Assembly (NCBI RefSeq): GCF_039529835.1 | Contig: NZ_CP154262.1 | Span: 2,356,001-2,420,000, forward strand | DNA length: 64,000 nucleotides | Direction: 5' to 3' | DNA from: Arthrobacter sp. TMP15 | GTDB lineage: Bacteria > Actinomycetota > Actinomycetes > Actinomycetales > Micrococcaceae | Part shown: positions 7,273 through 31,978 of the stretch, piece after piece | Layout of the letters: each line of letters starts with the position of its first letter | How positions within the stretch are numbered: position 1 is the first letter of the stretch | Made by a program: the position numbers and the translations under genes | The notes under the pieces: generated by a model | What the model was told of the DNA's origin: nothing | The model's database searches: none | What the model saw: the letters and a program-made list of their open reading frames with translations, nothing else

Positions 7273-10200
7273 CTATTCCAATGTCGGCGCCAAGACCCAC
7301 CACAGAACCTTTCCGGCGTCCCGCACATCGGTGAACAGACGTTCAATTACCGGGAAATCACCTTCACCCCGATCACTGGTAGTGGCCAACGCCACGCCCC
7401 TACCCATCGATTCGTCCCAAGTAATGGCTTTAATGACAGCCCACATCCCGAAGCGATGGGCGTGCAAGACATCCTCGAAATAGGTTGGAGCCTCATCCGG
7501 CACCCCATGTGCAACCCACTCTACAGAAGGATCTAGATCTGCCCGGTGCTGAACAACTTGGATTCGTGCTTTTCGGAGTTTCTCAATTAAGCTTGCGGGC
7601 GAATCCGACCCCACTATGGCAGCGCTAGGAAGCCACGTCTGCGACAACATCCCCCTTACCATCGACTCTGAAAGAACTTGGACTTCAATCGCATAGGACG
7701 GAAGTCCCACATACGAAACAGGTATACCTGCCGTACGAAACATCAACGTTAACGCTTGGTCGGCCAGGTGTGACCGTGCAATACACCGAAGTTGAGACCA
7801 TGCTTCACGGATTCGAGCGCCTTCGTCTGACATCCAAAGGCTTAGTTTCGATCGCCATATCGCAGGATCATCTGTGGCTAGGATCTCGCCGATTTGCTGA
7901 GTGATGCCCTGCCCCTTCCCGCTCAACACAACGCCGCCTGAGGCGGCAACTTCGACAACTCGACGTGAGAACATTGTCGGTGAGTCACGAGCCGAATTTA
8001 CATTGATAGACACCGGATGGGCTTTGTAAACCTTGAGGACTTCATCGTAAGGAACTCCTTCACGCACGAACTTTGCCAACTCTGCTGGAAAACGATACGG
8101 GGAGTCCGGAACATTCACTTGCCTGTCGTATATAGTCAGGCCGTGCACGGCAGCGGCCTCAAGAATCTGGTGCAATTCTACTGACCTCTCCTTAAACCTG
8201 TCACCGTAATATGTCCCAGCGTAAGCTACTGAGTGGTCATAGGGCCGATCGTGGTTCAGAGGGTTGTGAATAATCGGCTGAGCGTAAAAAGGCAGCGAAG
8301 CAGCTGCGCGAATATTGCTCTCTGAGATTCGGAGATAATCTGAAACACGATCACTGTCCGTCGTAAATACGAAGTCCATAAGAGCGGCCGTTCCCTTGAA
8401 ATTATGGAAATGGACAGGATCCTCCTTATTCCAGAAAATCAAAGGAATATTTTTAAGACGGGCTACGTCGACAATCCGCTTAAGATCAGCAATTCGATCC
8501 GGATGATAAGCCACTCCACGGCGCCACTCATCGTTTGGCCCTTCCCACGCCGACTCAATAAATATTGCATCCAAGTTCTCAGCTGCCACCTGCAAGTAAC
8601 CATCATTGCGACGAAGCGGTATCGCCACAAACGATTCTGATACAGTGCGGGTAGTAAACTGATCAGCAATCAAACCAATACGCAGATTCGCCAATTTCCT
8701 TTGGCCAGTTCGCTCCACAAAACCATCATAACTAGCGCAAACCTGCGCTATGTCAATCTCTTGTTGCTCTGTCGTAAGTACAAGGTCAGATTCTTCACGT
8801 AAACCCTCTGCAACGTCCTCGGAAACATTTCCACCCAAACTGGCCAGATCTAGGACAAAAGGCACGCCAACTCGACGCGCCGCTATTAGTCCCGAAACGC
8901 ACGCCCACGCGCTACCACTCCCAACGACAAGCGCCGGTCGGCTGACACGGGCATCTCGAACAATCTGATCGGCTGCGACAAGGACCGAAGCTTCCACCCC
9001 GATTTTCCCAGACACCTGCTGACTTTCAGATTGGGCCCCCAATACTCTTTCATTCATGATCTGAGCCGAGGACAAAAGACATTTTATCCAGTCAGGACGC
9101 GATTCTTTTTCGGTATGTGATGTATCCGAATCCAATACTTCAAGGACTGAATTGTGGATAGTGAGATATACCGACCCGTAGTTCCGTTTCGGAATGGCCG
9201 AAGCTGAACGAATAACACGAATCAGCCCGCGCTCCATAATAAAAGCTCCAAACGTCTCATACGGAAGAGCATCAAACAGGCGCGGATTTTCGTCAATCAG
9301 CTGTTCAACACGTGACTCCCTTCCGTCACGAATTAGTGTGCGAATTAGCCAACCGAAACGAGTGACATCAGGGCGCCTTGAAAATAGTGCCTCCACTCGT
9401 TCGGAAGATATCATCTTTGACGGCTCACGATCGTATTGGACGCTGGTGTCAAAGATCAAATCAGTCCATTTCTTGGAAACAGAATCGATACCGTACACCA
9501 TAACGGCAGTTTTGACATCCACTTGAGCAAGTCGGAAGGATTGAGGGTCACTATTTATTCGACGGATGAAATGCGCTGCTTTAGCGGTGTCTTCGTGTAT
9601 CCATTTAGAATCAAATATTTCAGATGCACCTTCGCGTTCCCAAACAACCGGTATTGCGCCGGAAGCCATACCCTCTATCGGTGCCAAATGGAACGTTTCT
9701 CGTGTACTGGGCGACAGCATCCAACCTATCTTCTGAAACCAGCGCCCCATGTCTGGACCAAAACCATCGAAAGAAACTCTCGACCGCAGGCGCGGGTTCA
9801 TGACCAATCGCTCATAGAAGGCCTCATATGAATCTCGAACAGACTCGTCCTTCCACATCCAGCTATAATCCCAAGGATTACGTCCTCGAATGTGAAGCGT
9901 GTATCTACTATCGTCCTCCAATAGAGCTTCCAATAGATCGAGAGCCCGATCAGGGCGTTTGAGAACTGGAACTATACCAGCTATCCCAATATGGAAACGG
10001 GCATCCGATAACTTTTCACGAGCAAGATCGTAAGAATCGATCATATTCGGAATAACAAAAGAGTTTGCCTCTTGCCAATTCAATTCGGCAATAACTTTGG
10101 ATCGGTAAAACGCAGACACAAACACAAAACCGTCAACATTGCTAATATTAATGTCCCTGATCCAATCAGAAAACAACTCATATCCATGAAAATGAATGAT

Positions 10201-11694
10201 TAATTTCTGTCCAGGTCGCTTCTCCCACGAGTACCATACCGAATTATGAGATGCGAATTCGCAGACCACAATGTCGGCCCAATCCGCATTAGCTTGACTA
10301 ACAGACACGTCCTGTACGTTCTGTTGAACCCATTTTTCAATGCGAACCTCATGCTCACCTCGGACAGATAGTTGATCGATTAGATCACCTGCAAATTTAA
10401 AATCATGTCCAACAAAAAGAATTTTCTTTGTCGGCTCGTCTCCGTTTGGGGTGAAATGACCCACAGAAGCATGATCTGCTAATTCAGCCAACTTTTCCGC
10501 CATGGACTCGCAACCTACTAACACGCCGTCCAAATCCAACCACGGAAGGACAACAGTCTTCCCAGTTATCTCTGGAATTCTAGTCTCAAGGATTGACCGT
10601 ATGCCCTCAGAGGGAACAACGATTCGGCGTATTTTAGCGAAAAGTTCTGCTTCTTTATGAAAGAGTTTCCTCTTCGCATCACTCCAGTCAACAGCAGTCA
10701 AAGTGGGCCAAACACGTTTGCGTAAAAACGAATTCGTTGCCGCACTTTTTACGGTTTCAATATCCGCTGGTAGAACGATGTTACAACCAAGACTTCGAGC
10801 CGCGACTGCAAGATACCAGCCAGCGTAACGTGGAGCCAGTACTCCATCTATCAAATGGCGTTCCACAATTTGTGGACTTATGGTTATGCAATTGTTTCGC
10901 CGAATATCAAGCCCATCATGGACTTCAAGTCCATTTGCTGTCAGCCGGATGATTTGAACATCCCGAGACCCCATTTCGTACGCACTGGAGTAAAAGTCGA
11001 CCGGGCTCGCAGCATGCGTTGGGTTCGCATCTCCCCGGATACCAGGTGCGGTAGACGCCACCAAATCATCGAAAATTAAGACTCTATGTCGGGCTCTAAC
11101 GAAAGACACAATTTGACGAGGAGTCACGGAATTCACTGGAGATGGTGACCCAGCATTGCTTGACGTACATAAAATGAGGATTTTCGTCGCAAATTCGGGA
11201 ACAAGTTGAATCAGCGCGACTCTAGAGAACTCGTCATCGACGATCACCAGACAAGACGCGTCAAGAGTCAAATGAATTGCCTTGCGGGCAGCATCAGAAT
11301 CATCTAAGTCCGACATTAGATCATTTTTGGAGAACCAAGATATCAATTTCCCTTCAGCCTTGGGATCCGCCGCGATGCATTTTGACAGGCTCAGTCCATG
11401 TGCAAAAATATATTCGGCCAGGCCATTATCCAGACGTTTGACTGCCTGCGCGGCGTAGATCTCGGTTTGGATCTGCCCGGACATGTCCAGTTCAATACCC
11501 ACCACCCGGCTTTCGAGTCCATCCTCCTCATATAGGTTTGTAATTTTATGAGGGATGAGAGTCGCAATCCCAGTGTCCTCTGCGAGCATCCCGCGGACAA
11601 GGGCGTCGTTCCTCCCCGACGCGTCATCAAAATTCTCCGATCCTGCAAGGAGAATGAGATCCTTTGACTGTTCGTGAACAATTTTGCTAATCAT
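7273..11694 (-). CDS. Giant multi-domain glycosyltransferase (GT-B, CgeB-like, degenerate GT2)
   Basis: From the ATG at 11694 the protein has 1473 residues. Residues 1-420 are unrecognised. Residues 423-745 form a GT-B glycosyltransferase-like module (ILFVGHDFKFAGDL; RETFHLAPIEGMASGAIPVV). Residues about 890-985 resemble the N-half of a GT4 domain (LIAARRVGVPFVLDL) without its sugar-nucleotide-binding half. Residues 1004-1325 match the CgeB-like family (FWNKEDPVHFHNF; DSPTMFSRRVVEVAASGG). Residues 1330-1425 look like a GT2 domain without an acidic DxD motif. I chose 11694 over 11796 because AAAGGA lies 6 bases upstream and the 4-base ATGATTAG-type junction with the previous gene suggests coupling. 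It presumably adds sugars to the surface polymer. The C-terminus lies 54 bases from an IS end, so some truncation is possible. Confidence 0.7.
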   Translation of the reverse strand: MISKIVHEQSKDLILLAGSENFDDASGRNDALVRGMLAEDTGIATLIPHKITNLYEEDGLESRVVGIELDMSGQIQTEIYAAQAVKRLDNGLAEYIFAHGLSLSKCIAADPKAEGKLISWFSKNDLMSDLDDSDAARKAIHLTLDASCLVIVDDEFSRVALIQLVPEFATKILILCTSSNAGSPSPVNSVTPRQIVSFVRARHRVLIFDDLVASTAPGIRGDANPTHAASPVDFYSSAYEMGSRDVQIIRLTANGLEVHDGLDIRRNNCITISPQIVERHLIDGVLAPRYAGWYLAVAARSLGCNIVLPADIETVKSAATNSFLRKRVWPTLTAVDWSDAKRKLFHKEAELFAKIRRIVVPSEGIRSILETRIPEITGKTVVLPWLDLDGVLVGCESMAEKLAELADHASVGHFTPNGDEPTKKILFVGHDFKFAGDLIDQLSVRGEHEVRIEKWVQQNVQDVSVSQANADWADIVVCEFASHNSVWYSWEKRPGQKLIIHFHGYELFSDWIRDINISNVDGFVFVSAFYRSKVIAELNWQEANSFVIPNMIDSYDLAREKLSDARFHIGIAGIVPVLKRPDRALDLLEALLEDDSRYTLHIRGRNPWDYSWMWKDESVRDSYEAFYERLVMNPRLRSRVSFDGFGPDMGRWFQKIGWMLSPSTRETFHLAPIEGMASGAIPVVWEREGASEIFDSKWIHEDTAKAAHFIRRINSDPQSFRLAQVDVKTAVMVYGIDSVSKKWTDLIFDTSVQYDREPSKMISSERVEALFSRRPDVTRFGWLIRTLIRDGRESRVEQLIDENPRLFDALPYETFGAFIMERGLIRVIRSASAIPKRNYGSVYLTIHNSVLEVLDSDTSHTEKESRPDWIKCLLSSAQIMNERVLGAQSESQQVSGKIGVEASVLVAADQIVRDARVSRPALVVGSGSAWACVSGLIAARRVGVPFVLDLASLGGNVSEDVAEGLREESDLVLTTEQQEIDIAQVCASYDGFVERTGQRKLANLRIGLIADQFTTRTVSESFVAIPLRRNDGYLQVAAENLDAIFIESAWEGPNDEWRRGVAYHPDRIADLKRIVDVARLKNIPLIFWNKEDPVHFHNFKGTAALMDFVFTTDSDRVSDYLRISESNIRAAASLPFYAQPIIHNPLNHDRPYDHSVAYAGTYYGDRFKERSVELHQILEAAAVHGLTIYDRQVNVPDSPYRFPAELAKFVREGVPYDEVLKVYKAHPVSINVNSARDSPTMFSRRVVEVAASGGVVLSGKGQGITQQIGEILATDDPAIWRSKLSLWMSDEGARIREAWSQLRCIARSHLADQALTLMFRTAGIPVSYVGLPSYAIEVQVLSESMVRGMLSQTWLPSAAIVGSDSPASLIEKLRKARIQVVQHRADLDPSVEWVAHGVPDEAPTYFEDVLHAHRFGMWAVIKAITWDESMGRGVALATTSDRGEGDFPVIERLFTDVRDAGKVLWWVLAPTLE

Positions 11695-12217
11695 TGTTTG
11701 TCCTTTCGCTGTAGTCGCTCGCCACGTGAAAGATTTTTCTTCGGCGCGGCTGTTCAGGCATCGCAAGCCAGAACTCCTGTGACGGAAACCGTACATGTGC
11801 TGAATTTCTTATCTCATGCGAGTAGTTCTGATCTGGCCAGTCATTATCGATATAGATAAATGTTCGCCCATGCTTTGTGGACCACTTCTCGATTCGAAGA
11901 ATTTCTTCGATAAGAAGTCCTCCGGATTCGGATTCGACTCCAAACCAGCTGCCATCATAGAGTGCCGCACGTTCGACAACGATGAAAGTCGGGCGAAATT
12001 TATCAATAGTACTAACCAACGTGTCCGGATACAACGGAACTGTAAGGTAGTACCGTGCTATTTCAGCAGATAAAACCTCGCTAGCAATAATGCCAACAAT
12101 ATCATTCGGGTATGCTATCGCCGTTGTCACTGGCCTAACTCCAGTCAATTCTGTGAAATTCATTTTCGTAAGGTTCGGGGGCAATGGGGTAGAGGACCTA
12201 CCAACCTGAGTGTTCAT
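11687..12217 (-). CDS. Small protein resembling the N-domain of CgeB-like glycosyltransferases
   Basis: The 176-residue frame starts at ATG 12217, with GGAAAGG 10 bases upstream. Residues in the middle (FRPTFIVVERAALYDGSWF; EEILRIEKWSTKHGRTFIY; IDNDWPDQNY) follow the spacing of the CgeB N-domain in neighbouring proteins (DALFVESAWDGIDGLW; LKSIIKWANEMQVPTIFWN; KEDPVHF). The catalytic C-half is absent. It overlaps the giant glycosyltransferase by 8 bases, so the two are probably translated together. It may be an accessory subunit or a leftover of a split gene. The family link is my own reading and not proven. Confidence 0.5.
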   Translation of the reverse strand: MNTQVGRSSTPLPPNLTKMNFTELTGVRPVTTAIAYPNDIVGIIASEVLSAEIARYYLTVPLYPDTLVSTIDKFRPTFIVVERAALYDGSWFGVESESGGLLIEEILRIEKWSTKHGRTFIYIDNDWPDQNYSHEIRNSAHVRFPSQEFWLAMPEQPRRRKIFHVASDYSERTNND

Positions 12218-12275
12218 TAATTGGTAACCTTTCCTTCGGATAATGCAAATATGCAATATCTATTATGTTTTATGT

Positions 12276-12303
12276 GTTATGTGAATGCAATTAGCGTCGT
12301 CAA
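12276..12303 (-). promoter_or_regulatory. Possible promoter for the CgeB-N/giant glycosyltransferase pair
   Basis: On the minus strand TTGACG (12303-12298), a 16-base spacer and CATAAC (12281-12276) resemble a vegetative promoter about 60 bases upstream of the ATG at 12217. The region is AT-rich. Confidence 0.3.
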
Positions 12304-12623
12304 GTAATTCTATCCATTTCAGTTGAGACACACAGGATACACATGATGCTCGGCAGTCGAGGACTTCGATAAACCAACACTGGACGGCTAGCTTCTCTTG
12401 TCGAATACTTTCAAAACATTACCCTCTGTAGTTGTCGTAATTCTTCCCCTATATGCAATGTTTGAAAGAAACAAATTTACCTATCGCAGACTTACTATAG
12501 TTATTCTCAAGCGGTTTCTGATAATTCGCAATTTTCCTATGCCAGACTTTCGTCGGTAAGTAAATCCTCATCATGACTGATTGGAACACTTGTAAATAAA
12601 GACAGATTTACAAGACCTGTTTA
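12304..12623. other. AT-rich non-coding gap
   Basis: About 320 bases between the CgeB-N gene and the decayed heparinase gene. I find no convincing frame, RNA gene or terminator. It is likely the former downstream region of the broken gene plus upstream sequence for the next one. Confidence 0.5.
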
Positions 12624-13239
12624 TCATTGCAGTCCGCCTACCCATACCCATCGCGTCGTAAGTGCGCGCCGGCACGCACGGTCATCCATCTTCCGTAAAA
12701 GGACACGGACGCGGTAACGACCTGCCCCCAAAAGTTTCCAATGATATTCTGCATATTTAGAATCAGGGATGCGGTCTATTATTTTAATACCTCTATATAG
12801 TCTCAGTGAGACGTCATATGATCCAGTGATACTTAACTTGATCGATATGGCTGATTCTTCATTTAAATAAGAAATGCTGGCCGAAGGATCCGTTCTAGGT
12901 AGAGTGCGATCTGCGTAGCTGAAAGATCTCGAGAGAAATTTGGTTGCAACATTTGCCCGAACACGGTCGAAGGAGAGAACGATAACAGTCGGCACAACGT
13001 CAGTCCCAAGATTCCAGTCTATGCCGAAATGGCTTGCAATCTCTGCTTCGATGACGTCGGACACATCAATCACTGATTCACCGTCTACGTCGTTGATGTT
13101 GACAGTCCTACGAAGTTTCGTTTTGTGGAGCTTCTCCTTGGTTCCAACAACCGAGAGCAGGTTGTCACTCTCCTTACCGACACGCATTTTAAAGGTGTCA
13201 GCCCGGTCGTCGGTGCGACGTACGCTTCTGCGATTTACG
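12624..13239 (-). pseudogene. Decayed paralogue of the heparinase/hydrolase fusion
   Basis: The minus-strand frame aligns with the C-terminal half of the 901-residue protein at 16818-19523. It begins at VNRRSVRRTDDRADTFK (against VNGKSVRRTDTHADTVH, residue 397 of the relative). After DWNLGTDVVP it jumps to VLSFDRVRANVATKF, losing about 55 residues. After RTLPRTDP it jumps to the C-terminal domain (GRYRVRVLLRKMDDR), losing the whole hydrolase domain. Both gaps keep the frame. The N-terminal 395 residues are cut off by an ISL3 end at 13240. The apparent longer frame to 14186 is antisense to the transposase. Confidence 0.75.
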
Positions 13240-13315
13240 GGCTCTTCCGAATCCAGAGTGTAGTCAGGTCTGGCGCGCGTGATTTCTGGGGCGGGGATCT
13301 CGTTTGGGCGTAGGT

Positions 13316-13358
13316 GAGGGCCTTGGTAGAGAATCAGATTGTCTACAGCAAGGCCCTC
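13316..13358 (+). promoter_or_regulatory. Subterminal hairpin in the ISL3 leader (copy 3)
   Basis: GAGGGCCTTG-GTAGA at 13316-13330 pairs with TCTAC-AG-CAAGGCCCTC at 13342-13358: a 10-bp stem, a two-base bulge and a 5-bp stem around an 11-base loop. It ends one base before the normal transposase start position. Confidence 0.55.
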
Positions 13359-14547
13359 GTATTCAACGCTACCTTCCAATGCCCTGACCTGACTACTTTC
13401 TGCCGCGCTGACGGGCTTGGCTTGGAGGCGACCGGGCAATTCCTTGCTGCCGATCGTGCCGTGATTGCCTGTCGTGTGGTGGCCACGGATCAATGGTGCC
13501 GAAAGTGTGGCTCCGAAGGTATCTTGCGGGACACATTGACGCGGGAACTCGGCCATGAACCTTTCGGCTGGCGGCCTACGACTTTGTTGGTTCGGGTCCG
13601 CCGTTATCGGTGTGCCGGGTGTGGTCATGTCTGGCGGCAAGACACTTCCCAGGCGGCTGAACCCAGATCGAAGCTTTCCCGCCGTCGCCTGGTGTGGGCG
13701 TTGGAAGGCACCGTCTGTCAGCACCTCACCGTTGCCCGCGTCGCAGAGGGGCTGGGAGTGTCTTGGAATACCGCAAACAAAGCTGTTTTGGTCGAAGGGT
13801 GGCGGGTGCTGATCAATGACCCCATACGCTTCGACGGGGTAAAGATCTTCGGTGTTGATGAGCACGTCTGGCGCGACTCCCGACATGGAGACAAATACGT
13901 CACCGTGATCATCGACCTCACCTCGGTAAGGGATAAGATCGGCCCGTCCAGGCTGCTGGACATGGTGGAGGGCCGCTCCAAACAGGTCTTCGCTACCTGG
14001 CTGAAACAACGCTCCCAAGCATGGCGGGACGAGGTGGAAGTCGTGGCCATGGACGGATTCTCCGGGTTCAAAAGTGCCGCAGCCGAGGAACTCCCCCGCC
14101 GCTGTTGCGGTGATGGATCTGTTCCATGTCGTCCGGCTTGCCAGCGATGCGCTCGATGACTGCCGGCGCCGTGTACAGCGAACCACGTGCGGGCACCGGG
14201 GACGGGCCGGAGATCCGCTCTACAAAGCCCGGCTGACGCTGCATACCGGTGACGGGCTACTGACCGAGAAACAACAAAAGCGAATCACTGACCTGTTCGC
14301 TGAGGATAAACACATCATGGTCGAAGCGACGTGGGGCGTCTATCAGCGCATGATCGCCGCTTACCGGGAGAAAGACCGGGCCCACGGTAAGAAGCTGATG
14401 CAAGCCCTCATTGACTCCCTCAGTACCGGGGTTCCTGCCGCACTGAAAGAACTGAAAAAGATGGGCGGAACACTCAAACGTAGGGCAATCGATATCCTCG
14501 CGTACTTCGACCGCCCAGGGACCTCAAACGGTGCTACTGATGCAATC
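13359..14547 (+). pseudogene. ISL3 transposase, frameshifted and truncated (copy 3)
   Basis: Residues read VFNATFQCPDLTTFC from 13359; relatives start MFNATF, so the GTA at 13359 may be a decayed GTG start. The frame carries the zinc domain (CRKCGSEG, CAGCGHVW), the HTH (RVAEGLGVSWNTANKAV) and the DDE core (IFGVDEHVWRD; VVAMDGFSGFKSAAAEELP). One extra C in the run at about 14091-14096 shifts the frame. It resumes as VMDLFHVVRLASDALDDCR and continues to GTSNGATDAIQ, where homology ends. It is inactive. Confidence 0.8.
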
Positions 14548-14567
14548 CAATGCCGACATCGGCATTG
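14548..14567. repeat. Palindrome at the fusion of two inverted ISL3 fragments
   Basis: CAATGCCGA-CA-TCGGCATTG has perfect 9-bp arms and a 2-base centre. It lies where the plus-strand transposase (TDAIQCR) meets the minus-strand transposase (TEAVQCR), in the same codons of both. Confidence 0.8.
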
Positions 14568-14999
14568 CACGGCCTCCGTTGGGCCATTGGAAGCGCCCTG
14601 AGTTTTGAAGTAGGCGAGTATTTCTTGCCGCCAGGACTTCAAAGTCTGTCCGAGCCGAGCAACTTCCGGAATCGAGCACGACGGGAAAGACGCCAGAGCT
14701 TTGGCCACGAGTTCGCGCCCGCGTTCCGGGGCTGCGTGGTAGACGGCCCGGACTTGCTGGTAGCACTGCCAAGCGAGCGTGACCTAGTGGTTCGGGTCCC
14801 CGGCTTCAAGCTTCGCGTTCAGCCGGGCTACCTGCTTCTCACTGAGATGCCCAGCCCCGATCTGCAGGGGACGGCGAATTTCAAACAGCGGATCGACTTT
14901 GCGGCCACGGTGGCCGAGTGTGTCTTGCTGAACCCGGCGGCGAACGTCATCAACCATCGCGGAGGCAAGTTTCACCACATGGAAAGCATCCAGGACCCA
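14560..14999 (-). pseudogene. ISL3 transposase C-terminal fragment (copy 4)
   Basis: The minus strand reads VLDAFHVVKLASAMVDDVRRR from about 14999, then HRGRKVDPLFEIRRPLQ, a TAG after DPNH (14784-14786), and VTLAWQCYQQVRAVYHAAP to ASNGPTEAVQCR near 14560. Both the N-terminal half and the extreme C-terminus are missing. It is a third variant of ISL3, fused tail to tail to copy 3. Confidence 0.7.
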
Positions 15000-15144
15000 G
15001 GACTCCGGACTCCGGACATGGTGAGGATGCGACTTTCGTAGTTTGTTGAATTACCGAGGTTCTTACTTTGGCTCGGGCTGATAATTCCATACTCACTGTG
15101 AGATAATAAGGGCGTGATGATTTCCTGCGTGGGTGGGTGAAACA

Positions 15145-15957
15145 ATGGTTTCAATGACTACCCAAACCGCCCTTCCCGTGCTGCCGGACCTCGGCGCTGT
15201 GCTCATGGGCGAGCGTGCGGCCCTGCTGGAAAACGCCACTGGTGGCAAGGTCTTCATTAACGGGCAGTTGGCTTATGTGTGGGGTGCGGGCCAAGACGGT
15301 CTGCGCCGGCTGGCGGCCTCCCAACTAGTCGATACCGGTGCCGCCTAGGTCAACGAGGTCGCCGCAGCTTTCGGCGTCAACACGGAGTCGTTGCGGCGCT
15401 GGCGCAAGTCCCTTGAAGGTACTGGCCTGAAGGGGCTGGCGCCGGTGAAGAAGGGACCCAAACGCCCCTCCCTGCTCACGGAAGCCAAGGCAGCGCAGAT
15501 TCGTGCTGTTCGTGCCGGCGGTGCGAGCTTGCGGGCGACCGCCGAAGCTACCGGGGTTTCCACCGATACGGTCCGTCGCGACATGGCCACCCTGACGGAA
15601 ACACCGGCAACTGAATTTACCCACGATTCTGTAGTGCCCCTTGAAGCAGCGCAACAGCCTGTGTTGCAGGCCCCGGTGGCCCGCAACGGGGAGCGGGCAC
15701 CAGCACGGGCCGGGCTCTTTGAATGCGCGGCACCGGTGTTCGCCGAATGCGCGGCACCGGTGTTCGCCCCGGCCGCCCATGTTCGCCATGCCGGACTGTT
15801 CCTGGCCTTCCCGGCACTGGAAACTACCGGCCTGCTCAGCAGCGCCAAAGCCACTTACGGTTCATTGCCGGATGGCTTCTATGGCCTCGAAACGATCCTG
15901 GTCGATGCTGTGCTGCGGGCGTTGGCCGGAGAAGCCCGGGCCGAGGGTGCTACCCGC
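15145..15957 (+). pseudogene. Helix-turn-helix transposase-like gene, stop-broken and truncated
   Basis: The frame starts at ATG 15145 (or 15154) and reads AYVWGAGQDGLRRLAASQLV. A TAG at 15346-15348 interrupts it, where a glutamine codon would fit (GAA-stop-VNEVAAAFGV). The same frame continues with two HTH-like segments (NEVAAAFGVNTESLRRWRK; ASLRATAEATGVSTDTVRR) and a region ending YGSLPDGFYGLETILVDAVL. This layout recalls a family of large transposase-like proteins whose catalytic part follows. Here that part is replaced at 15958 by an ISL3 tail. A 24-bp tandem duplication lies inside. Family assignment is tentative. Confidence 0.55.
15721..15768 (+). repeat. 24-bp tandem duplication
   Basis: A 24-base unit (15721-15744) is repeated exactly at 15745-15768, encoding ECAAPVFA twice in frame. 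It looks like a recent slippage event in a decaying gene. Confidence 0.9.
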
Positions 15958-16188
15958 TTTGGCGGACCATTTGCCGGTGGTGGAAAGAGATCGAGGTCCT
16001 CATCGTCACCGGCGCCACTACCGGAAAAGTCGAAGCGAACAACACCTCCATCAAGCACATCAAACGCACCGCCCGCGGCCACCGCAACCGAAACAACTAC
16101 AGATCAGTTATTCTCTTGAGAAGTGCCGCCCGGACGATGGCATGACACTCAGCCCGGGAATCCGAATCCCCACGAACCACCAAGAGCC
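15958..16188 (+). pseudogene. ISL3 3' tail with terminal repeat (fragment 5)
   Basis: From 15958 the sequence reads RTICRWWKEIEVLIVTGATTG, then VEANNTSIKHIKRTARG to a stop near 16145, followed by the ISL3 terminal repeat ending at 16188 (CACGAACCACCAAGAGCC). Only the last 60 or so codons remain. It is nearly identical to 16463-16693 (offset 505 bases). Confidence 0.8.
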
Positions 16189-16225
16189 CCCAAACCCGTC
16201 ACCAGACCGTGTCCGGAGTCCTGGG

Positions 16226-16693
16226 CCTGGGCACACCGAAGGCTGCTTCTACGAGCTGGTGACACCCTTTCAGAGAATGCCCGGGCCCGGTTGGAGACAG
16301 TCTTCACCACGGACGATCCGACCGGGAAACTCAAAGCAGCGTGGGAAGTCAAAGAACAAGTGCGGGTCTTGTTGCGAACTGCTTCCTTAGAAGATGCCGA
16401 GCTGGCCAAAGACCGCCTCGAAGAGTTGGTGCAAGCATCGAAGCAACCGGAGACGACCAGGGTTTGGCGGACCATTTGCCGGTGGTGGAAAGAGATCGAG
16501 GTCCTCATCGTCACCGGCGCCACTACCGGAAAAATCGAAGCGAACAACACCTCTATCAAACACATCAAACGAACGGCACGTGGCTACCGCAACCCCAACA
16601 ACTACACATCAGTTATTCTCTTGAGAAGTGCCGCCCGAACAACGGCATGACACTCAGCCCGGGAATCCGAATCCCCACGAACCACGGAGAGCC
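16226..16693 (+). pseudogene. ISL3 3' third with terminal repeat (fragment 6)
   Basis: The frame reads WAHRRLLLRAGDTLSENARAR, LEELVQASKQPETTRVW, EIEVLIVTGATTGKIEANN and ends at 16650 (RSAARTTA), with the terminal repeat ending at 16693. It is the closest relative of copy 2 (5106-5828). Everything 5' of the WAHR motif is missing; the join at about 16211-16226 carries a sequence shared with two other junctions. Confidence 0.8.
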
Positions 16694-16720
16694 ACCAAAG
16701 CACCCAAGCATGCACCAGAG

Positions 16721-16771
16721 ATTTCGCGAGCACTTCTCAAATGAGGCACGCACCCCATTTCGCGAGCACTT
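16721..16771. repeat. Direct repeat ATTTCGCGAGCACTT, two copies
   Basis: The 15-mer is found at 16721-16735 and 16757-16771, each followed by a short ATGAG-containing stretch. It lies between the ISL3 end and the 3' end of the heparinase-like gene. The origin is unknown; it could be a remnant of another element. Confidence 0.6.
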
Positions 16772-16817
16772 TAGATGAGTCTCGTCGGGCCCTTGACACA
16801 CACTCAAGTAGCCGGCA

Positions 16818-19523
16818 TCATTTCAATAAAACCCAGCGAGTGGTAAATGCATCCCTCGAAGAGCGATCATGGGTTTTTCTCAAAAAAACACGTACTCTAT
16901 ATCTACCCGCCGGTAAATTACTCCAAGAGTATCTGCGAAAGACGCCATAGGGCACCGTATTGACCACTTCACTTTCGAGATACAGCTTAAAGGAAACCTC
17001 TTCCCCCCCGAAACTATTTACTGTAAGGCTAATGGACGAGTTGCTGCCAGACGAACTGATTTGCGCCGAAGATACCTTGCCAGTTTCCTCCGAGTTCTCA
17101 TCGGAAGCTTTCTCTAGCAAATGAGTTGAAAGAAATTTTTGAAGTTCCCGTCCGAACACAGGACCAATTTCAGCATGGGGCAGTCCGGGGCGCACGTCAA
17201 GATCTACACTCTGGCTTTTGGCTGCCATATGCCGCACAAAAGGCAGAACGTGATTCTTGTAGTGGTGATCGCGTTCGCCAACTAGGATATGGATATTTGG
17301 AAACCTCTCGGCCTTGTTGGCCACATCAAATACCAAACAATCCAATAAAGCAATATCTTTGGAGCTAGTTCCACCAGTCATAAATTCTAAAATATTTGGG
17401 TGCGGTTTTTCCAAGAAACTTCCTATAAGTATCTGTGGCGCTCCAACGAAAACATTAGCGGCACCTGCTGTGATTCCGTGAATCAAAGCCGCGGTTCCGC
17501 CCTTAGATGATCCTACAGTGACTAGATTATCAACGGTCAGACCCAACTCATCCAATTTTGTCTCAATAAGATTCTGTGTAGCATCATAAATATATTTGTC
17601 ACCGTGGTCAGAATAGTAGTATGCACCCTGATCTCCAAAGTCATCAAGAATATATAGTATATTTGCAGGACAAGAATTTAGCGAAGAACGGTAGTTATAC
17701 GTAAAGTCACCCAAACCGCTTATAGCTGAGAATACGACAACCAGCAATCGGGACCCTTCTGAAGTCGTCGCAGGCGACATCGAATAGTTCAGACTGCACT
17801 TATCCTGAAACTTCTCCCAAATAGGTTCAACTTCCAGAAGCCCTCGATTAGTATAATTGAACGACTTAAGGCGAAACTTTGTTAGAATCTCAGCGCTTTT
17901 ACCTCCGAAGGACAGAACTATTGCATTATTCGGTTCCGCAACCCCAAAGGTTGGGCATCGCCATCCGATATAAGTAGGTTTTGTTTGCCCACAGTGCAAA
18001 CTAATTTTTAGAGGAATGTCTGAAGCCATCAGCGCATCCATAATTTTCACGCCTTCGTGAAACAGTTCAAATCCTTGACCATGTACTACCGGAACGACGT
18101 CAGGACCCAGATTCCAAATAAGTTCGTATTTTTGGCCAAATTCGGACTCTATAACGTCCAATAGATCAATCTGGGTTTCACCTTCAGCCTCAAAAATATT
18201 CACACTTCTACTATGCCGGGTACCATGTAGACGGCCAGTGACTCCTGTCACTGATAGCCTTTCTTTTCCACTGCCATTGTCAAACAAATGCACCGTATCT
18301 GCATGAGTGTCAGTACGACGCACACTTTTGCCATTAACCACCACATTATTGTGGGCATATTGCCCGTAAGCAAATAGTGTATGAGGATCCTTATAGTTAT
18401 AGCCGTGAGGCCCGGCCTCGGTCAGCAAGTCCACCCCTTGGCTTGTCAAGAGGAACGACAAGTCGTCAGAGTGCTTATGATAATCCGCGTTGTATGCAGC
18501 ATGGAAGTACGCAAAGGTAGCTCCCTTCTCCGTCCACGAAGACCTATATATGGCATAACCTGATGAAGGGAGAACTAACACTCTGTCCGACGGGACACTG
18601 CCGCGACGTCCACGTGTTGCGGCATATTCGAACTCTGGATCATCAAATAAATTCTGGGCGTACCAGGCTAAACTCTTTTGGGTAGTATCGCTGACGGGCG
18701 GAAATTTTCCCGATGGCATAACACTATGCGTCGCAAATATTGAGGCCCTGTTGAGTGTCGACGTTAGTATTTCGACGTCTGGATGGGAAATAAGTTCAAG
18801 AAGATCTCGATGCGATTTTAGTTGATGGCAAATCATAAGGTGATACGTAGGAGTATTTTCACGATGAACACCTTCCGATGTAAAACAATCCAGGAAGTAT
18901 GCCTTTATTCGGCTTTCGCCCAAGTTAAACAGAGAGTTTCTACATCTGTTATCGCGCCATGTTCCGAGTATGGAATAGTTGATGAGAGCGAGATCTTGAA
19001 ACATTCCATGATTATTTCCCGTCGAATGAAAATCTTCGCTCTCAAGTAGAGTTGCAGTATCATCGATAATACCTTGCAGGAGCAGAATCTTTTTATCCGT
19101 CAAGTAGGGAAGTGCGGCTTCTCTCACATTTAGAAGATTTATCAATCTCTGGGCAGTTGTCTCGTCATGGTAAGCCATAGTATTCACCGCAGGTCGCGAT
19201 GGATAGCGTGAATACCATTCAAGAATAATATCCGCAGCTGCGCCTGCCAAGCCGCCGGACGTATCAGTGCGGATTGATTCGGACCAATCACTAAAAAATA
19301 TGAACCCGTGCATGAAACGTGACCGAGCACGGTCAGATTCGTCCGTCCACATTTCCCCATCGTTATAAGGAATTTCCGGATGGCCTGGACGTTCGAAGGA
19401 CGCACTCATCCTGTAAGCGGTTACTCGTCCTCGTGAAAGACTGCTCTCTCCGGATGGAAGTCGACGCAGAACATAGCCTCGAAGCGCATCTAAGGGGATC
19501 TGATTATCTGAATGTTCGTGCAT
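16818..19523 (-). CDS. Heparinase II/III-like domain fused to an alpha/beta hydrolase
   Basis: The 901-residue protein has a polysaccharide-lyase-like N-terminal region: NNHGMFQD (170-177) and the beta-domain motif YHKHSDDLSF (348-357). Residues about 580-800 are an alpha/beta hydrolase with elbow VTVGSSKGGTAA (Ser673) and candidate partners Asp752 and His783. Residues 828-901 form a small C-terminal domain (GRYRVRVFLRKTHDRS). No signal peptide is seen, so it probably acts in the cytoplasm, where lyase-like proteins in polymer loci are thought to act on intermediates. ATG 19523 has no clear ribosome site. It follows the giant glycosyltransferase gene by 58 bases. A second, decayed copy lies at 12624-13239. 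Confidence 0.7.
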   Translation of the reverse strand: MHEHSDNQIPLDALRGYVLRRLPSGESSLSRGRVTAYRMSASFERPGHPEIPYNDGEMWTDESDRARSRFMHGFIFFSDWSESIRTDTSGGLAGAAADIILEWYSRYPSRPAVNTMAYHDETTAQRLINLLNVREAALPYLTDKKILLLQGIIDDTATLLESEDFHSTGNNHGMFQDLALINYSILGTWRDNRCRNSLFNLGESRIKAYFLDCFTSEGVHRENTPTYHLMICHQLKSHRDLLELISHPDVEILTSTLNRASIFATHSVMPSGKFPPVSDTTQKSLAWYAQNLFDDPEFEYAATRGRRGSVPSDRVLVLPSSGYAIYRSSWTEKGATFAYFHAAYNADYHKHSDDLSFLLTSQGVDLLTEAGPHGYNYKDPHTLFAYGQYAHNNVVVNGKSVRRTDTHADTVHLFDNGSGKERLSVTGVTGRLHGTRHSRSVNIFEAEGETQIDLLDVIESEFGQKYELIWNLGPDVVPVVHGQGFELFHEGVKIMDALMASDIPLKISLHCGQTKPTYIGWRCPTFGVAEPNNAIVLSFGGKSAEILTKFRLKSFNYTNRGLLEVEPIWEKFQDKCSLNYSMSPATTSEGSRLLVVVFSAISGLGDFTYNYRSSLNSCPANILYILDDFGDQGAYYYSDHGDKYIYDATQNLIETKLDELGLTVDNLVTVGSSKGGTAALIHGITAGAANVFVGAPQILIGSFLEKPHPNILEFMTGGTSSKDIALLDCLVFDVANKAERFPNIHILVGERDHHYKNHVLPFVRHMAAKSQSVDLDVRPGLPHAEIGPVFGRELQKFLSTHLLEKASDENSEETGKVSSAQISSSGSNSSISLTVNSFGGEEVSFKLYLESEVVNTVPYGVFRRYSWSNLPAGRYRVRVFLRKTHDRSSRDAFTTRWVLLK

Positions 19524-19581
19524 TGTGGGTCAGTTAAGCTTTCGTAGATAGTTTACTAATCAGCCAAGAAAGGATGTAATA

Positions 19582-22500
19582 TTAGCTAGTTCCGACAATC
19601 GTTTCTACGATTTTCTCTAGAACTATGGCTTGATCAAAGCTGGCCATGGCATAAGCCTTTGATAGTTCCGAAACACTCGTCCAGTTGTCGGGACTTGATG
19701 TCACAGCGCGAATGGACTGTGCCAGATCTGTGCTATCTGCAGATAGCCAATTCTCCGGATATATTTGGTCGGCACCTGACCATGCAAGACTCATTGGTAC
19801 AGCCCCTGAGGCGGCACCGTCAGCGAGAGTCAAATGAAATGATTCGAAATTACTAACGGATAGAGCTATACCGATTTTCCGGTACCATTCTGACATATCA
19901 TTGCCATGCCCATCGAAATGGACCGCACCTTTTAGTAAAGGGTCTTTTTGAATACGAGCAAACTGTTCGTCATAGAACTTCATTTCCTCTGGTCGGTCGG
20001 ACATCCAGGGATAATCCTCAGGGAGTTTTCCTTTTATATATAGCTTGAAGCGATCATCTTTAGCACGCAGATCTGTGAGGACGTCAAGGGCAATGTCGAG
20101 CCTTTTCCTCTCGGGTATTATTCCGACGAGACCGAGGTTGAAACGTACATCTCCAATTTTATCCATTGCAAGGGAATTTATATCCACGTAGTTCGGTATA
20201 ACAGTGGCTATTGACCCAGGGATTCCATGATCTCTAATGGCCACATCGGCGATATGTTGGCCAACAAAGATCACGGACTCTACGTTAGTGTAATTAATTT
20301 TATCCAAATATTTCGTTGACAGCTCTTGCAGATGCAAACGCGTTACGAGTCGTTGATTCGGATTTTTATTATCCGCATACCATACCGCATTGCCGAGCGT
20401 CCACTCGCAGAAGACGACGTCTGCATCTTTTAAGAGCTCCAGACTAAGGGTCTCGTTGTGACCACTGTGGCCTGTCCACTGATCGATACTTACCTTGTGT
20501 CCGAGTCCCTGAAGCCGACGTATTATGCCGCCAGCGAACTTGAGGTCATGTCCGGCAATAAGAATATGCATTTTACGAGCTGTTGTACCTCCGATTGCGC
20601 CAGCTTCGGCAAGCGGGATAGCGTTGCTAGGACGCCTAAGAACCAGCGACCCCTCGGCATCAGCGTCGGTGGCCATCAGCGCCGTAGAGCCATCTTCGGC
20701 CTCTGCAAGTTGAGCCATTCCCAAGCCTGGCAAATTCAAGTCTTTCGACGACGCACTGATGACTCGCCATGTGCCGAATCTAACCGCTGAAAGGAGGTCT
20801 TCAAAGTAGGTCCTATCTATCGGTTCGGTGCCCATCGCAGCCACCCACTTCAATCCTTGTATCCGTGCTCTCGTTAATGCTTCGGCATTGGACTCGACCC
20901 TTGTAGCCAGCCATCCTTGTGGGATGGAAGATGCCTCACCGACAAAGAAGATCTCTGTTGGCAGCACTGTCTGCATCTCCAGTGACGCTATTACCTCCGA
21001 ATTCAGTTCCGTGACATACACACCATATTTAGCTGGCTCTGGTGCCAACACTTTCAGACCCGCGGTTCGGAGTGCGCAGGCCAGCCTGTGGGCCGCTGTG
21101 TGCGATCTATGAACAAGCCGGTAAGTTAGCCAGGTATCTCGCAGCCTTGACTCTTCGTCTTGCATCCATTGTTGTATGAGGAGTTCGGCATCTCCCTTGG
21201 TTCGTATTACAGGAACTATACCGGCAAAAACATCTTCTACCCCGCAGCCTTGCCCGCTGATGACGGCACCACCTGATGCAGCGATCTCCATGACTCGTCT
21301 GGAGAACATGGTGGGTGAATCGGCTACCGAGTTGACGTTGATGTGCACAGGGTGGGCCTTGTAAGCCTCCACCATGTCCGCGTAGTCAAGGCCGCCCCGA
21401 ACATAGCCCGATAGGTGGTCGGGGAAATGGTATGGGCTATCAGGGTTTAAATGTTGCCTATCATAAATGGATAGGCCTTGGCTGCTTGCGGCACTCAATA
21501 GCTTTGAGAGTTCTACTGAGCGAGCGGCAAAACGATCCCCATAGTAGGAGCCGGCATAGTTGACAGTGTGGTCGTATGCTCTCTTACTCGGCAGAATATT
21601 GTGGAATTTTGGCTGGGCATAGAACGGCAGTGAAGAAACAGTTTTCTGGCTCTCACCAGCATTATCCATATAGGCGCTAATGCATGAAGCATCTGTGGTG
21701 AAAACGTGATCGAAGTACTTTGATGTTTTACGAAAACGGTTGAAATGTACCGGATCTTCCTTATTCCAAAAAATAGTTGGAACTTGCATTTCATTAGCCC
21801 ATTTAATAATACTCTTGAGTTCATCAAACTTTTCATCGCTGTAGAAGCCGACTTTTTGTTTCCATAGTCCGTCGATTCCATCCCATGCCGATTCGACAAA
21901 CAGAGCATCAATTGGCTGGCCTGATAATTGGGCATGCCAAGTATCTGGCCGTAGAACTATGAGGTCAGCTTCAGGTCTGAGGCCCTCTAGGGTGAATTGG
22001 TCGGAAATGATCGCTATCTTGAGCTGTTCTAGCGCCACTCCTGGCTCTAAGGAACTATATTGCAGCCTCGCCTCACGATGCGCACGAGCGGCAATGGTTC
22101 CAGCTTGACGCCAAGTTCGCTCGCGTAACGTCCAGAGCCGGGCACGTCGTCCGACTGACTGCAACAGTGACGGATCGTCAATCAGGGTAGTTATGGCCGT
22201 TACCAAAGAGTTGACATCTCCAGGAGTGGTTAGCAGCGCCCTTTCGTTGGCCCTTCCCGCCAGTTCTCGCATAGGTGAGAGATCACCGAGGATCATAACC
22301 TTACCGCAGGCCATCGCCTCCAATGGCTTCAAAGGGGAGACCATTTCAGTTACCGGTAGCCTCCTCCGTGGGCAAGGCATAATGTCAAATAAGCTTATAT
22401 AAGCAGGAACTTCAGAACTCGCTACTCGTCCAGTAAAGAAGACACTTTCCGTTATACCTAGCTGCTTTGTCTGCTCTTTCAAGTTCATTAGCTCAGGTCC

Positions 22501-24042
22501 GTCACCAACGATCATGAGAACAGCATTTATTCCATTTCCGCGAAGAACGCCAATCGATGCAACGATATCTGCGACACCTTCATACGCCACCAAGCTACCC
22601 GCGTACCCCAAAATAATTGCTTCACTATCAATGCTATGTTTGTCGCGTAGGTTGGAGTCTGGCGGCATTGGCGCAAAGATATCCGTGTCAACAGCGTTCT
22701 GTAACAGCGAAATCCTGGCTTCAGTTACACCCCGAGTTACAAGTTCTGCACGAACTTCACGTGTGATAGCCAAGACCACATCAGCATTGGACGCCACCAA
22801 GGTCTCCATGGCTGAAGCCAGTTTGTATCGATCCGATTCACCCCACCAAGTCCTATGCGATAGCTCGGTAATTTCCCATAGCCCCCGAACTTCGTATACG
22901 AACGGGACACCCATTCGGCGTGCAGCGATAAGTGCAGGCAGCGACGTAACGTAATTGGACGCGGCATGGACAAGCGAGACACGATTTCTTTGAGCTTCGC
23001 GAACGAAAACGTCTGTGGACTCTGCCAGATACTGGTCGATACGATCTGCGGTCCAGCTGGGACCGGGGTTAAATACATGGGTTACACCGCCAATCTGTTC
23101 TTCGCACCTTCGGGCTAACGGAACAGGGATATCTACTTTAGAATCCCATGGATAGCCAGGGCGCGCCACGACGACAACTTCTTCACCCGAGGATTGTAGT
23201 CCTTGGGTCAGACCGGAAGTTCGGGTGGAATAACCATTACTGTTGTACTTGCCAGTGCTGTGGGCGCAGTACATTATTCTTCCGCGTTCGGCGAGGTATC
23301 CAATGTTGGACTGACGCGGTGGCAGGCTTGGCGGTTTCTCGAGAAGTGAAGCCTGACCCTTGATATTATCAAGTACCTTTTGCTCCTGAGTAGACACTCC
23401 AGTGAGCAGCTCCGCATGAGTATCTATGAATGCCGCTGGACGTTTCAAAGATCCACAAGTGAAATAGTCAAAGTAGATCACCCGTATTGCGTTACCCTTG
23501 GACGGAGCGAGCTGAAATGTCCTTATCAACGCAAGGTAGCTGACTTCGACGGACTGGGCATCGGGCTCTGTAGCCGCGCTTGATGGTGCAGCACGTATAA
23601 GTGCTCCATTGCTATCTGAAGCGTTATCACTTCTCCCACTCAACACTAGTTGAGCATCTCCGGGTTGAGCTTTCCATTGAACATTTTGTTTTAGCGCGCT
23701 AGACACTGATCGGGGCGCCTGTCTCAGGATCCGTATAGGACGGCTGATAGCCCGCCCCATACGGATGCTTTTAGAATTACGAAGTGCTGCTAAAGAAGAC
23801 TTAAGCCTGACAATTTCCGCGGTCGCCGACTCAGAAATAAGGCGGTATTGGTCGTGATTGCGTCTCATGGCCGTCAGATCACGTTTTAGGGCTTTCGCTT
23901 CATTTTCCCTGACTTTAAGCTGCGCCAAAGCCCCCTCATACTTGAGAATCAGTGAATCCAGGTCCTTGCCATGTTTCTTACGCTTAGCCAACTGAAGGGC
24001 TGATATCCGTGCTTCTTCGTCGTCGTGCTTCATTCGTTCCAT
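19582..24042 (-). CDS. Giant multi-domain glycosyltransferase (GT4, CgeB-like, degenerate GT2, GT-B)
   Basis: The protein has 1486 residues. Residues 1-95 are a charged coiled coil. A full GT4 domain spans about 255-650 (LIAARRMGVPFVYEVRG; GYAGSLVAYEGVADIV; SPLKPLEAMACGK). A CgeB-like domain spans 673-998 (FWNKEDPVHFNRF; DSPTMFSRRVMEIAASGG). A GT2 remnant without DxD spans 1005-1100. A second GT-B module spans 1157-1480 (ILIAGHDLKFAGGII; FESFHLTLADGAASGAVP). These are the modules of the 1473-residue protein in a different order. It lies 26 bases after the dehydrogenase gene in the same operon. Translation starts at ATG 24042 or 24033. It should add several sugars to the surface polymer; donors and linkages are unknown. 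Confidence 0.8.
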   Translation of the reverse strand: MERMKHDDEEARISALQLAKRKKHGKDLDSLILKYEGALAQLKVRENEAKALKRDLTAMRRNHDQYRLISESATAEIVRLKSSLAALRNSKSIRMGRAISRPIRILRQAPRSVSSALKQNVQWKAQPGDAQLVLSGRSDNASDSNGALIRAAPSSAATEPDAQSVEVSYLALIRTFQLAPSKGNAIRVIYFDYFTCGSLKRPAAFIDTHAELLTGVSTQEQKVLDNIKGQASLLEKPPSLPPRQSNIGYLAERGRIMYCAHSTGKYNSNGYSTRTSGLTQGLQSSGEEVVVVARPGYPWDSKVDIPVPLARRCEEQIGGVTHVFNPGPSWTADRIDQYLAESTDVFVREAQRNRVSLVHAASNYVTSLPALIAARRMGVPFVYEVRGLWEITELSHRTWWGESDRYKLASAMETLVASNADVVLAITREVRAELVTRGVTEARISLLQNAVDTDIFAPMPPDSNLRDKHSIDSEAIILGYAGSLVAYEGVADIVASIGVLRGNGINAVLMIVGDGPELMNLKEQTKQLGITESVFFTGRVASSEVPAYISLFDIMPCPRRRLPVTEMVSPLKPLEAMACGKVMILGDLSPMRELAGRANERALLTTPGDVNSLVTAITTLIDDPSLLQSVGRRARLWTLRERTWRQAGTIAARAHREARLQYSSLEPGVALEQLKIAIISDQFTLEGLRPEADLIVLRPDTWHAQLSGQPIDALFVESAWDGIDGLWKQKVGFYSDEKFDELKSIIKWANEMQVPTIFWNKEDPVHFNRFRKTSKYFDHVFTTDASCISAYMDNAGESQKTVSSLPFYAQPKFHNILPSKRAYDHTVNYAGSYYGDRFAARSVELSKLLSAASSQGLSIYDRQHLNPDSPYHFPDHLSGYVRGGLDYADMVEAYKAHPVHINVNSVADSPTMFSRRVMEIAASGGAVISGQGCGVEDVFAGIVPVIRTKGDAELLIQQWMQDEESRLRDTWLTYRLVHRSHTAAHRLACALRTAGLKVLAPEPAKYGVYVTELNSEVIASLEMQTVLPTEIFFVGEASSIPQGWLATRVESNAEALTRARIQGLKWVAAMGTEPIDRTYFEDLLSAVRFGTWRVISASSKDLNLPGLGMAQLAEAEDGSTALMATDADAEGSLVLRRPSNAIPLAEAGAIGGTTARKMHILIAGHDLKFAGGIIRRLQGLGHKVSIDQWTGHSGHNETLSLELLKDADVVFCEWTLGNAVWYADNKNPNQRLVTRLHLQELSTKYLDKINYTNVESVIFVGQHIADVAIRDHGIPGSIATVIPNYVDINSLAMDKIGDVRFNLGLVGIIPERKRLDIALDVLTDLRAKDDRFKLYIKGKLPEDYPWMSDRPEEMKFYDEQFARIQKDPLLKGAVHFDGHGNDMSEWYRKIGIALSVSNFESFHLTLADGAASGAVPMSLAWSGADQIYPENWLSADSTDLAQSIRAVTSSPDNWTSVSELSKAYAMASFDQAIVLEKIVETIVGTS

Positions 24043-25322: not shown

Positions 25323-25329
25323 TCTTCCC

Positions 25330-28130: not shown

Positions 28131-29007
28131 AGCTTTCTTCAGCTTTCCAAAAATACACGGTCCCAAACGCTAGCATTGCAAAAGACCAAAGAGCCAAAAC
28201 AGTCCATGAATTCCAAGAGGGAATAGTGTCGTATATCAACGCTCCTCGAGCCATGAATAGAACTTGATAAAGTGGGTTATGTTCCATAACTTTCATCACT
28301 ATTGGCATATCCGAGAAACGATCGATTGAAAAGAACATGCAAGATAAATACATCCAAGCTCGCATGCCATAAGTCAAAATTTGATTCACATCATTAAATC
28401 TAGATGACATGCGGGCCACAATTAGTCCAAAACCAAGATTAAATATGAACTGCAGTGAGATAATTGGTACTATCAATAACCATTTGAGCGTAACACGCTC
28501 GTCCGGCGGTAACAGTATGATAAGGACCAGAAGAGTCAATATAACCGGTACATTGAGAAATAGTTCTCTCAAATTGGCGGCTATTACAAGCGTTGCTCGA
28601 GGAAATTTGAAGGCATGAATGACATTTTTATTGGAAAATATCGCCCGGCTGCTTGCATTAATGGATCTAATAGAAAATTGAAAGAAAAAAACACCAATAA
28701 TCAAATAAGAAACAAAATTTTCAATTCCTCGTCCTGACTTCAACAATATACCCATAACAAAAAAGAACATAAGACCATTGAGTACCGGGCTTATAATTAA
28801 CCAAGCACTGCCGAGCTTGTCTTTCTCATTATTAGTGCTTACTTTTGCTTTAGCGTCATAATAGATAAAATGGCGATAATCCCAAATTGAAACAATATAG
28901 TCTAAAAAAGAAGGCCTAGCGCCCACGCGTTTCAAACGGCGTAAATTGACTGAAGTTTCTACTACGGTCGGTTGAGGACCGCTAGTTGCATCGTTTGGCG
29001 CAGCCAT
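28114..29007 (-). CDS. ABC-2 type polysaccharide export permease (Wzm/TagG type)
   Basis: The 297-residue protein has about six hydrophobic segments and the ABC-2 exporter pattern (DYIVSIWDYRHFIYYDAKAK; LGSAWLIISPVLNGLMFFF). It would form the membrane channel that moves the lipid-linked polymer across the membrane with the ATPase encoded downstream. ATG 29007 lies one base after the stop of the upstream glycosyltransferase gene. Compared with the housekeeping genes, it is strikingly AT-rich. Confidence 0.85.
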   Translation of the reverse strand: MAAPNDATSGPQPTVVETSVNLRRLKRVGARPSFLDYIVSIWDYRHFIYYDAKAKVSTNNEKDKLGSAWLIISPVLNGLMFFFVMGILLKSGRGIENFVSYLIIGVFFFQFSIRSINASSRAIFSNKNVIHAFKFPRATLVIAANLRELFLNVPVILTLLVLIILLPPDERVTLKWLLIVPIISLQFIFNLGFGLIVARMSSRFNDVNQILTYGMRAWMYLSCMFFSIDRFSDMPIVMKVMEHNPLYQVLFMARGALIYDTIPSWNSWTVLALWSFAMLAFGTVYFWKAEESYGREY

Positions 29008-31971: not shown

Positions 31972-31978
31972 GAGCGTA

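Follow-up and report, generated by a model that had tools for sequence, protein, structure and literature searches.

Module order and ancestry of two giant glycosyltransferases in Arthrobacter sp. TMP15

How did two giant glycosyltransferases (GTs) containing related modules in different order come to be encoded in one stretch of DNA, and what might they make? The stretch, here called the window, is 64,000 nucleotides of Arthrobacter sp. TMP15 (contig NZ_CP154262.1, positions 2,356,001 to 2,420,000), and it encodes the two giants, proteins A and B, on its minus strand. The reading that we favor, with moderate confidence, is that B is a fused, operon-like glycan-assembly enzyme, that A is a chimera, and that both would build a teichuronic-acid-like wall polymer containing N-acetylmannosaminuronic acid (ManNAcA). 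Module content, module ancestry, recurring gene context, and purifying selection in relatives were computed; we infer the detailed fusion history, the activity, the polymer, the order of its sugars, and how A and B share the work.

Modules of proteins A and B

7273..11694, minus: protein A, A-type giant glycosyltransferase, 1473 amino acids (aa); open reading frame (ORF) open to 11796
10426..11694, minus: A, N-terminal region; Rossmann half-domain material resembling, in two hhalign matches, the CgeB' N part seen in stand-alone CgeB'-X proteins
9535..10425, minus: A, X module (GT-B, alpha clade); GHDFKFAG, E-x7-E intact
8767..9246, minus: A, GT4 N-terminal half only, LIAARRVGVPFV (hidden Markov model [HMM]; profile match to B-type GT4, P 98.2)
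7720..8685, minus: A, CgeB module; FWNKEDPVHF and DSPTMFSRRV
7372..7665, minus: A, GT2 remnant; without DxD at the motif columns
19582..24042, minus: protein B, B-type giant glycosyltransferase, 1486 aa
23248..24042, minus: B, N-terminal region; partly coiled-coil-like, by eye only
22096..23247, minus: B, complete GT4 module (PF13439/PF00534, HMM)
21052..22023, minus: B, CgeB module (PF13524; Pfam, HMM, motifs)
20701..20997, minus: B, GT2 remnant; without DxD at the motif columns
19681..20568, minus: B, X module (GT-B, beta clade); E-x7-D, versus E-x7-E in A

The order in B is GT4, CgeB, GT2 remnant, and a GT-B module that we call X; in A it is Rossmann half-domain material, X, GT4 half, CgeB, and GT2 remnant. 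The initial annotation, made from the sequence alone, had given this domain order for both proteins, and the BLASTP blocks and HMM architecture agree with it; the CgeB-like N-half material ahead of A's X was absent from that annotation. With A numbered by its 1507-aa ORF, BLASTP aligned A 1035-1477 with B 671-1118 (42%, 5e-98) and A 439-754 with B 1144-1454 (36%, 4e-58), and gave a weak match of the GT4 half, A 941-1059 with B 342-446 (28%, 6e-5). The two strongest blocks are far beyond chance, and their order is permuted.

The 1507-aa ORF, 7273-11796 on the minus strand, is the longest for A. Because an AAAGGA stretch lies just 5' of the ATG at 11694, and by eye there was none before the upstream ATG, 1473 aa is the likelier length.

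By Pfam's curated cut-offs A and B are GT-B-fold glycosyltransferases (GT4 group, CgeB/Glyco_trans_1_2). PF00534, PF13692, PF13439, PF13579, and PF13524 were over cut-off in B; in A, PF13524 was over cut-off and PF00534 and PF13692 were just over. PF13524 was also matched in all 14 control genomes, so this family alone is nothing special. A sequence search of the PDB matched B's GT4 to solved GT4-type enzymes; the same search with A gave nothing better than E 0.43. Only two GT modules appear intact in A (X and CgeB), against three in B (GT4, CgeB, and X).

Ancestry of the modules

Relatives of the giants were sought by scanning regions with profiles for which A, B, and C were the seeds; C is a protein of the same gene cluster with CgeB and an intact GT2. 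The scan covered 97 X-bearing genomes (84 of the window's family and 13 of other families, at least one X region each), and its counts are uncorrected for relatedness. B-type ORFs, with CgeB before X, were found in 59 of the 97 genomes, 53 of them in the window's family, and GT4 was in the ORF in 55 of the 59. Six genomes had an A-type ORF, and all six also carry B. M-type ORFs, which are X-bearing and longer than 1010 aa without a strong CgeB, were found in seven, none of which carries B. Stand-alone X was classed as X_alpha (30), X_beta (16), or other (12); the weakly placed rows G114b, G212b, and G229b were counted as other, not as alpha.

In a tree of X (68 of 113 rows) the A rows formed one clade (support 99/82) within an alpha clade (100/99) that also holds stand-alone CgeB'-X and M proteins, and the B rows grouped with short X_beta proteins as beta (95/85). 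When A's X was constrained to beta, with the short beta rows included, the log likelihood fell by 56 and the constraint was rejected by the approximately unbiased (AU) test (p 8.6e-6). An enlarged tree of 74 rows, to which four Bacillota/Pseudomonadota rows and more Micrococcales rows had been added, again contained alpha (98/95) and A (99/97) clades; the B rows G023 and G126 left the supported part of beta and sat at an unresolved fork. Judging from these trees, the X half of A is not derived from B.

The CgeB half has a different ancestry. In a tree of 58 of 129 rows, the six A rows (100/98) and three split-A rows were nested in B-type, with the B rows of genus g6 (99/96), and a B-type clade excluding A and split-A was rejected (p 0.004). 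This tree makes A's CgeB half B-derived, if not a near relative of the B in its own genome. The premise that matching modules of A and B are closest relatives therefore holds for CgeB to the extent that A lies inside the B-type clade, if not beside its own B, and fails for X, which is alpha and apart from beta. As history, the proposal that the giants are permutations of each other is not supported, since A's X groups with stand-alone CgeB'-X and M proteins and not with B's X. Because A's CgeB is B-type but its X is alpha, A is best read as a chimera, not a permutation of B.

A true circular permutation would require a B-like gene to have been duplicated in tandem and the copy trimmed at either end, leaving X-GT4-CgeB-gt2. 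The order of X, GT4 half, CgeB, and gt2 in A is indeed a rotation of B, and A's CgeB is B-derived, but we consider this origin very unlikely: A's X is not B-type by the trees and the AU test, and the material ahead of it is CgeB'-like, as in stand-alone alpha proteins. Moreover, in genus g32 the parts of A are separate genes, X_alpha being apart from the GT4half-CgeB-gt2 block in G161 and G262. In G161 the X protein has 501 aa, the GT2 plus glycerophosphotransferase-like protein 895 aa, and the GT4half-CgeB-gt2 protein 795 aa; G262 has the same three genes, and G327 has a broken set.

The half-domains of A are consistent with its being a chimera. The N-part of stand-alone alpha proteins was CgeB-like by profile comparison (P 100, E 4e-38), and the N-part of A matched this CgeB' N-part twice, in its N-terminal stretch only (hhalign P 96.7 and 95.1). 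The middle of A resembled the linker that precedes GT4 in B (P 96.4) and the N half of the B-type GT4 (P 98.2). An HMM scan of the six A and three split-A rows did not find the GT4 C half, which bears out the "half GT4" of the initial annotation. Donor binding in GT-B enzymes is the task of the C half; therefore, the half-domains of A are expected to be inactive alone.

The name "GT2 remnant" also proved apt. At the aligned motif columns DxD was present in 47/47 C-type GT2s, in 0/6 A rows, and in 0/49 B rows (the remnant was detected in 49 of the 59 B rows, and the other ten were left out of this count). Four B rows and two A rows, one of them the window's A, do have a D.D at another place, no more than about a dozen residues away. 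The remnant of A and B lacks the DxD by which a GT2 is recognized. By hhalign the A and B remnants matched each other (P 99.4), the B remnant matched C's GT2 at P 52, and the A remnant did so at P 7.5; there was no match between the remnant and the GT2 of X_gamma proteins. A BLAST alignment of B 653-1040 with C 52-463 is the main, weak support for the idea that the remnant may have come from a C-type GT2.

Separate counterparts of B's modules are found on plasmids of Bacillaceae. In Cytobacillus spongiae (NZ_CP089998) the gene order is sugar dehydrogenase, CgeB-GT2, CgeB'-like GT, X (334 aa), and heparinase, which parallels the order dehydrogenase, B, and heparinase-like gene H in the window. 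A Rossellomorea plasmid (CP128836) encodes a coiled-coil-like protein, CgeB, X, DUF6270, a sugar dehydrogenase, ABC genes, and a LytR-CpsA-Psr (LCP) protein. Both operons resemble the window in having CgeB and X near each other with sugar dehydrogenase, heparinase-like, or ABC/LCP genes; they differ in that the modules are separate genes and there is no GT4 fusion. Given these separate genes, B looks like a fused operon. The earlier suggestion that a recurring module set had been fused is thus supported, as related modules were found separate, split, and fused.

From these relationships a possible history can be outlined. B would have arisen by fusion of an operon of separately occurring parts, with GT4, CgeB, and X_beta intact and a GT2 module that has no catalytic motif. 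A would have arisen when a CgeB'-X_alpha unit, its CgeB' cut to the N half, was fused ahead of a B-type linker-GT4-CgeB-gt2 block; the block would have lost the donor half of GT4 and X_beta, and X_alpha and CgeB would remain intact.

Distribution and conservation of the giants

The X module matched 84 of 395 family genomes at E 1e-15 or better, and the CgeB module matched 164 of 395; in the order, X matched 36 of 396 genomes at E 1e-25. When 23 genomes of the genus were searched with whole B, a giant ORF was found only in the window's own genome, and the only match to whole B in a contig scan was weak and short and came from an unrelated metagenome-assembled genome. The 97-genome scan did not extend to G065's second X match or to a pair of X fragments in G202, and a 1481-aa giant in G246, cut by the region edge, was not counted as B.

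B ORFs are similar in length, 53 of the 59 being 1426-1577 aa; the remaining six are 888, 923, 925, 1192, 1337, and 1893 aa, and some of these are broken or run into a contig end. Where A and B share a contig, as they do in five A-type genomes, about 8 to 25 kb separates them. Four genomes have M-type giants of 1663-1672 aa. In G172, G213, and G260 of genus g24, M occupies the position that B has in G195 and G114, beside the genes for C, GTg, F, and the dehydrogenase (UGDH). The M-type proteins (L102 8425-13425, L121 6450-11468, and relatives) have X first, then GT4/CgeB parts and an intact-looking GT2.

Motifs of the intact modules were conserved. The first glutamate of X and the FWNKEDP of CgeB were each present in 59/59 B and 6/6 A rows (the frameshifted G313 A row being without part of X), and the GT4 glutamate was present in 55/55 B rows. 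We also calculated the ratio of nonsynonymous to synonymous substitution rates (dN/dS) in pairs of relatives that do not include the window's own A and B. Six B-type pairs were run; four had usable dS in each region, and two more divergent pairs had saturated dS in several. The four pairs gave dN/dS of 0.05-0.09 for GT4, 0.04-0.07 for CgeB, and 0.05-0.14 for X. Values for GT2 plus linker were 0.23-0.50, which indicates that the remnant is relaxed yet still constrained. A single A-type pair (G308/G356) gave 0.075 for X, 0.035 for CgeB, and 0.035-0.19 over five regions. Together, the motifs and the dN/dS values in relatives suggest that the A- and B-types are functional.

If A were instead a functionless by-product in decay, its half-domains would be understandable, and so would the insertion sequence remnants and degraded H copy that adjoin it in the window, the frameshift in the A-type copy of G313, and the apparently broken split form in G327. 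We think this most unlikely, however, in view of the five unbroken A-type ORFs, the low dN/dS in each of the five regions compared between G308 and G356, and the X and CgeB motifs retained in all six A rows.

Gene cluster and putative polymer

Upstream of B, and between A and B, lie the following genes:

24069..25376, minus: UDP-N-acetyl-D-mannosamine (UDP-ManNAc) dehydrogenase (NCBIfam NF008286, 574 bits, cut-off 459)
25330..27237, minus: C, CgeB plus intact GT2, 635 aa (Pfam, BLAST, DxD)
27234..28166, minus: ABC exporter ATPase (Pfam)
28114..29007, minus: ABC exporter permease (ABC2_membrane just under cut-off)
29009..30736, minus: F, stand-alone GT4, 29% to B's GT4
30733..32055, minus: GTg, GT4-group glycosyltransferase (Pfam)
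32882..33958, minus: LCP ligase
16818..19523, minus: H, heparinase II/III-like domain plus XcbB/CpsF-like C-terminal part (48 bits, NCBIfam cut-off 125)
12645..13238, minus: fragments of a second, degraded H-like gene (tblastn), between A and ISL3 transposase remnants

The cluster of LCP, GT, GT4 (F), ABC permease, ABC ATPase, C, UDP-ManNAc dehydrogenase, and B recurs in many loci, though not in all, and often has a heparinase-like gene near it. The ABC exporter, at 27234-29007 in the window, is likewise beside B in many loci, and NF008286 over its cut-off places a uronic-acid nucleotide-sugar enzyme in the locus. The dehydrogenase, exporter, LCP, and heparinase-like neighbors suggest a teichuronic-acid-like polymer. 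A and B would assemble its repeat unit in the cytoplasm, adding one sugar per intact module; the finished polymer would be exported by the ABC transporter and attached by the LCP ligase.

There is precedent for chains of fused GTs in the multi-module polymerases of the ABC-dependent Klebsiella O4, O7, and O12 O-antigens. As described in excerpts of PMC11231755, these systems have several GT modules per chain, fused or split according to serotype, beside an ABC exporter, and a coiled coil in the terminator-bearing proteins, all of which is similar here. They differ in belonging to Gram-negative lipopolysaccharide, and neither the GT4-CgeB-gt2-X order nor an X-first chimera is found in those excerpts. 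By sequence, A and B each have at least two GT modules with conserved motifs in one chain, as multi-module polymerases do. Hence, from the gene context and by analogy to the characterized polymerases, it is plausible that each giant works as a processive or repeat-unit enzyme in one chain.

Alternatively, A and B may not be polymerases, their modules each acting once, in a linkage unit, primer, or side branch, while C, F, and GTg make the chain. We regard this as possible, if doubtful. The cluster does encode these three further GTs, and X and CgeB modules stand alone in many genomes, but in the Klebsiella ABC-dependent systems it is the fused GT modules that constitute the polymerase (PMC11231755, excerpts).

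Several points weigh against our reading of A as a chimera and of both giants as makers of a ManNAcA-containing polymer. The X and CgeB trees are subsamples with some long branches, the groups compared in the AU tests were set after a first tree was seen, and A's CgeB is joined less firmly to the g6 B rows alone (89/79). The A-type dN/dS comes from two other genomes of one genus, and the broken copies in G313 and G327 count here too. AlphaFold models of X from two window rows had a pLDDT of 51 and were not used. The activity and polymer proposed for this organism are predictions from genes, and the dehydrogenase is linked to the polymer by gene context only. Finally, according to excerpts of PMC3005890, the teichuronic acid synthetase of Micrococcus luteus is a membrane-bound 440-kDa octamer with two kinds of separate GT, not a giant chain, and the authors' model needs no transporter; the gene is not named there, the encoding operon being left to further work. 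That system is similar in that it makes an actinobacterial ManNAcA wall polymer with two transferase activities together, but it also means that a giant should not be assumed in every family member. The utr loci of Streptomyces, as covered in excerpts of PMC13274773, similarly concern actinobacterial teichuronic-acid-like polymers, whose gene content differs among closely related species; they differ from the window in that UtrC and UtrF resemble TarS and TarM, and no giant fused GT is found in those excerpts. Our literature search of open-licence papers returned none on these giants.

The polymer locus itself varies. In G019 (L066/L067), a genome of the same species, one flank is 98.8% identical over 11455 bases (window 34049-45503); at the polymer locus (window 32882-45503 compared), the cluster is replaced by diverged genes, with no B and with a stand-alone CgeB'-X protein. 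A swapped cluster beside a near-identical flank is as expected of a serotype-like variable locus. Tentatively, one could imagine a system that shuffles GT modules, in which the repeat unit depends on whether each module is intact or halved and not on where it stands in the chain, B and M swap one slot, A is a second, chimeric chain, and the wall polymer is thereby switched between strains of one species. This is rather unlikely.

The fused-operon and chimera reading is of use in two ways. It offers natural pairs in which related GT modules occur in different order and have split-gene relatives, so that module order, motif-less modules, and half-domains are testable, and it points to a gene cluster that may make wall polymers of ManNAcA type in the family.

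Some minor observations concern the neighbors. We do not claim B's GT4 as a duplicate of F, because its 29% to F is less than the up to 37% to GT4s on plasmids of other phyla. H (16818-19523) has no obvious signal peptide by eye; heparinase-like genes lie near B in many loci and are also present in Cytobacillus. ISL3-family transposase pieces flank A on both sides (window 3660-5945 and 13314-16650). A DUF6270 gene is near A (window 1459-3465), and DUF6270 also occurs in the Rossellomorea CgeB-X operon (L194 6527-7243). In G161 (L139 7551-10238), the fusion of GT2 with a CDP-glycerol glycerophosphotransferase-like part lies between two split-A genes, which hints at a teichoic-type polymer there.

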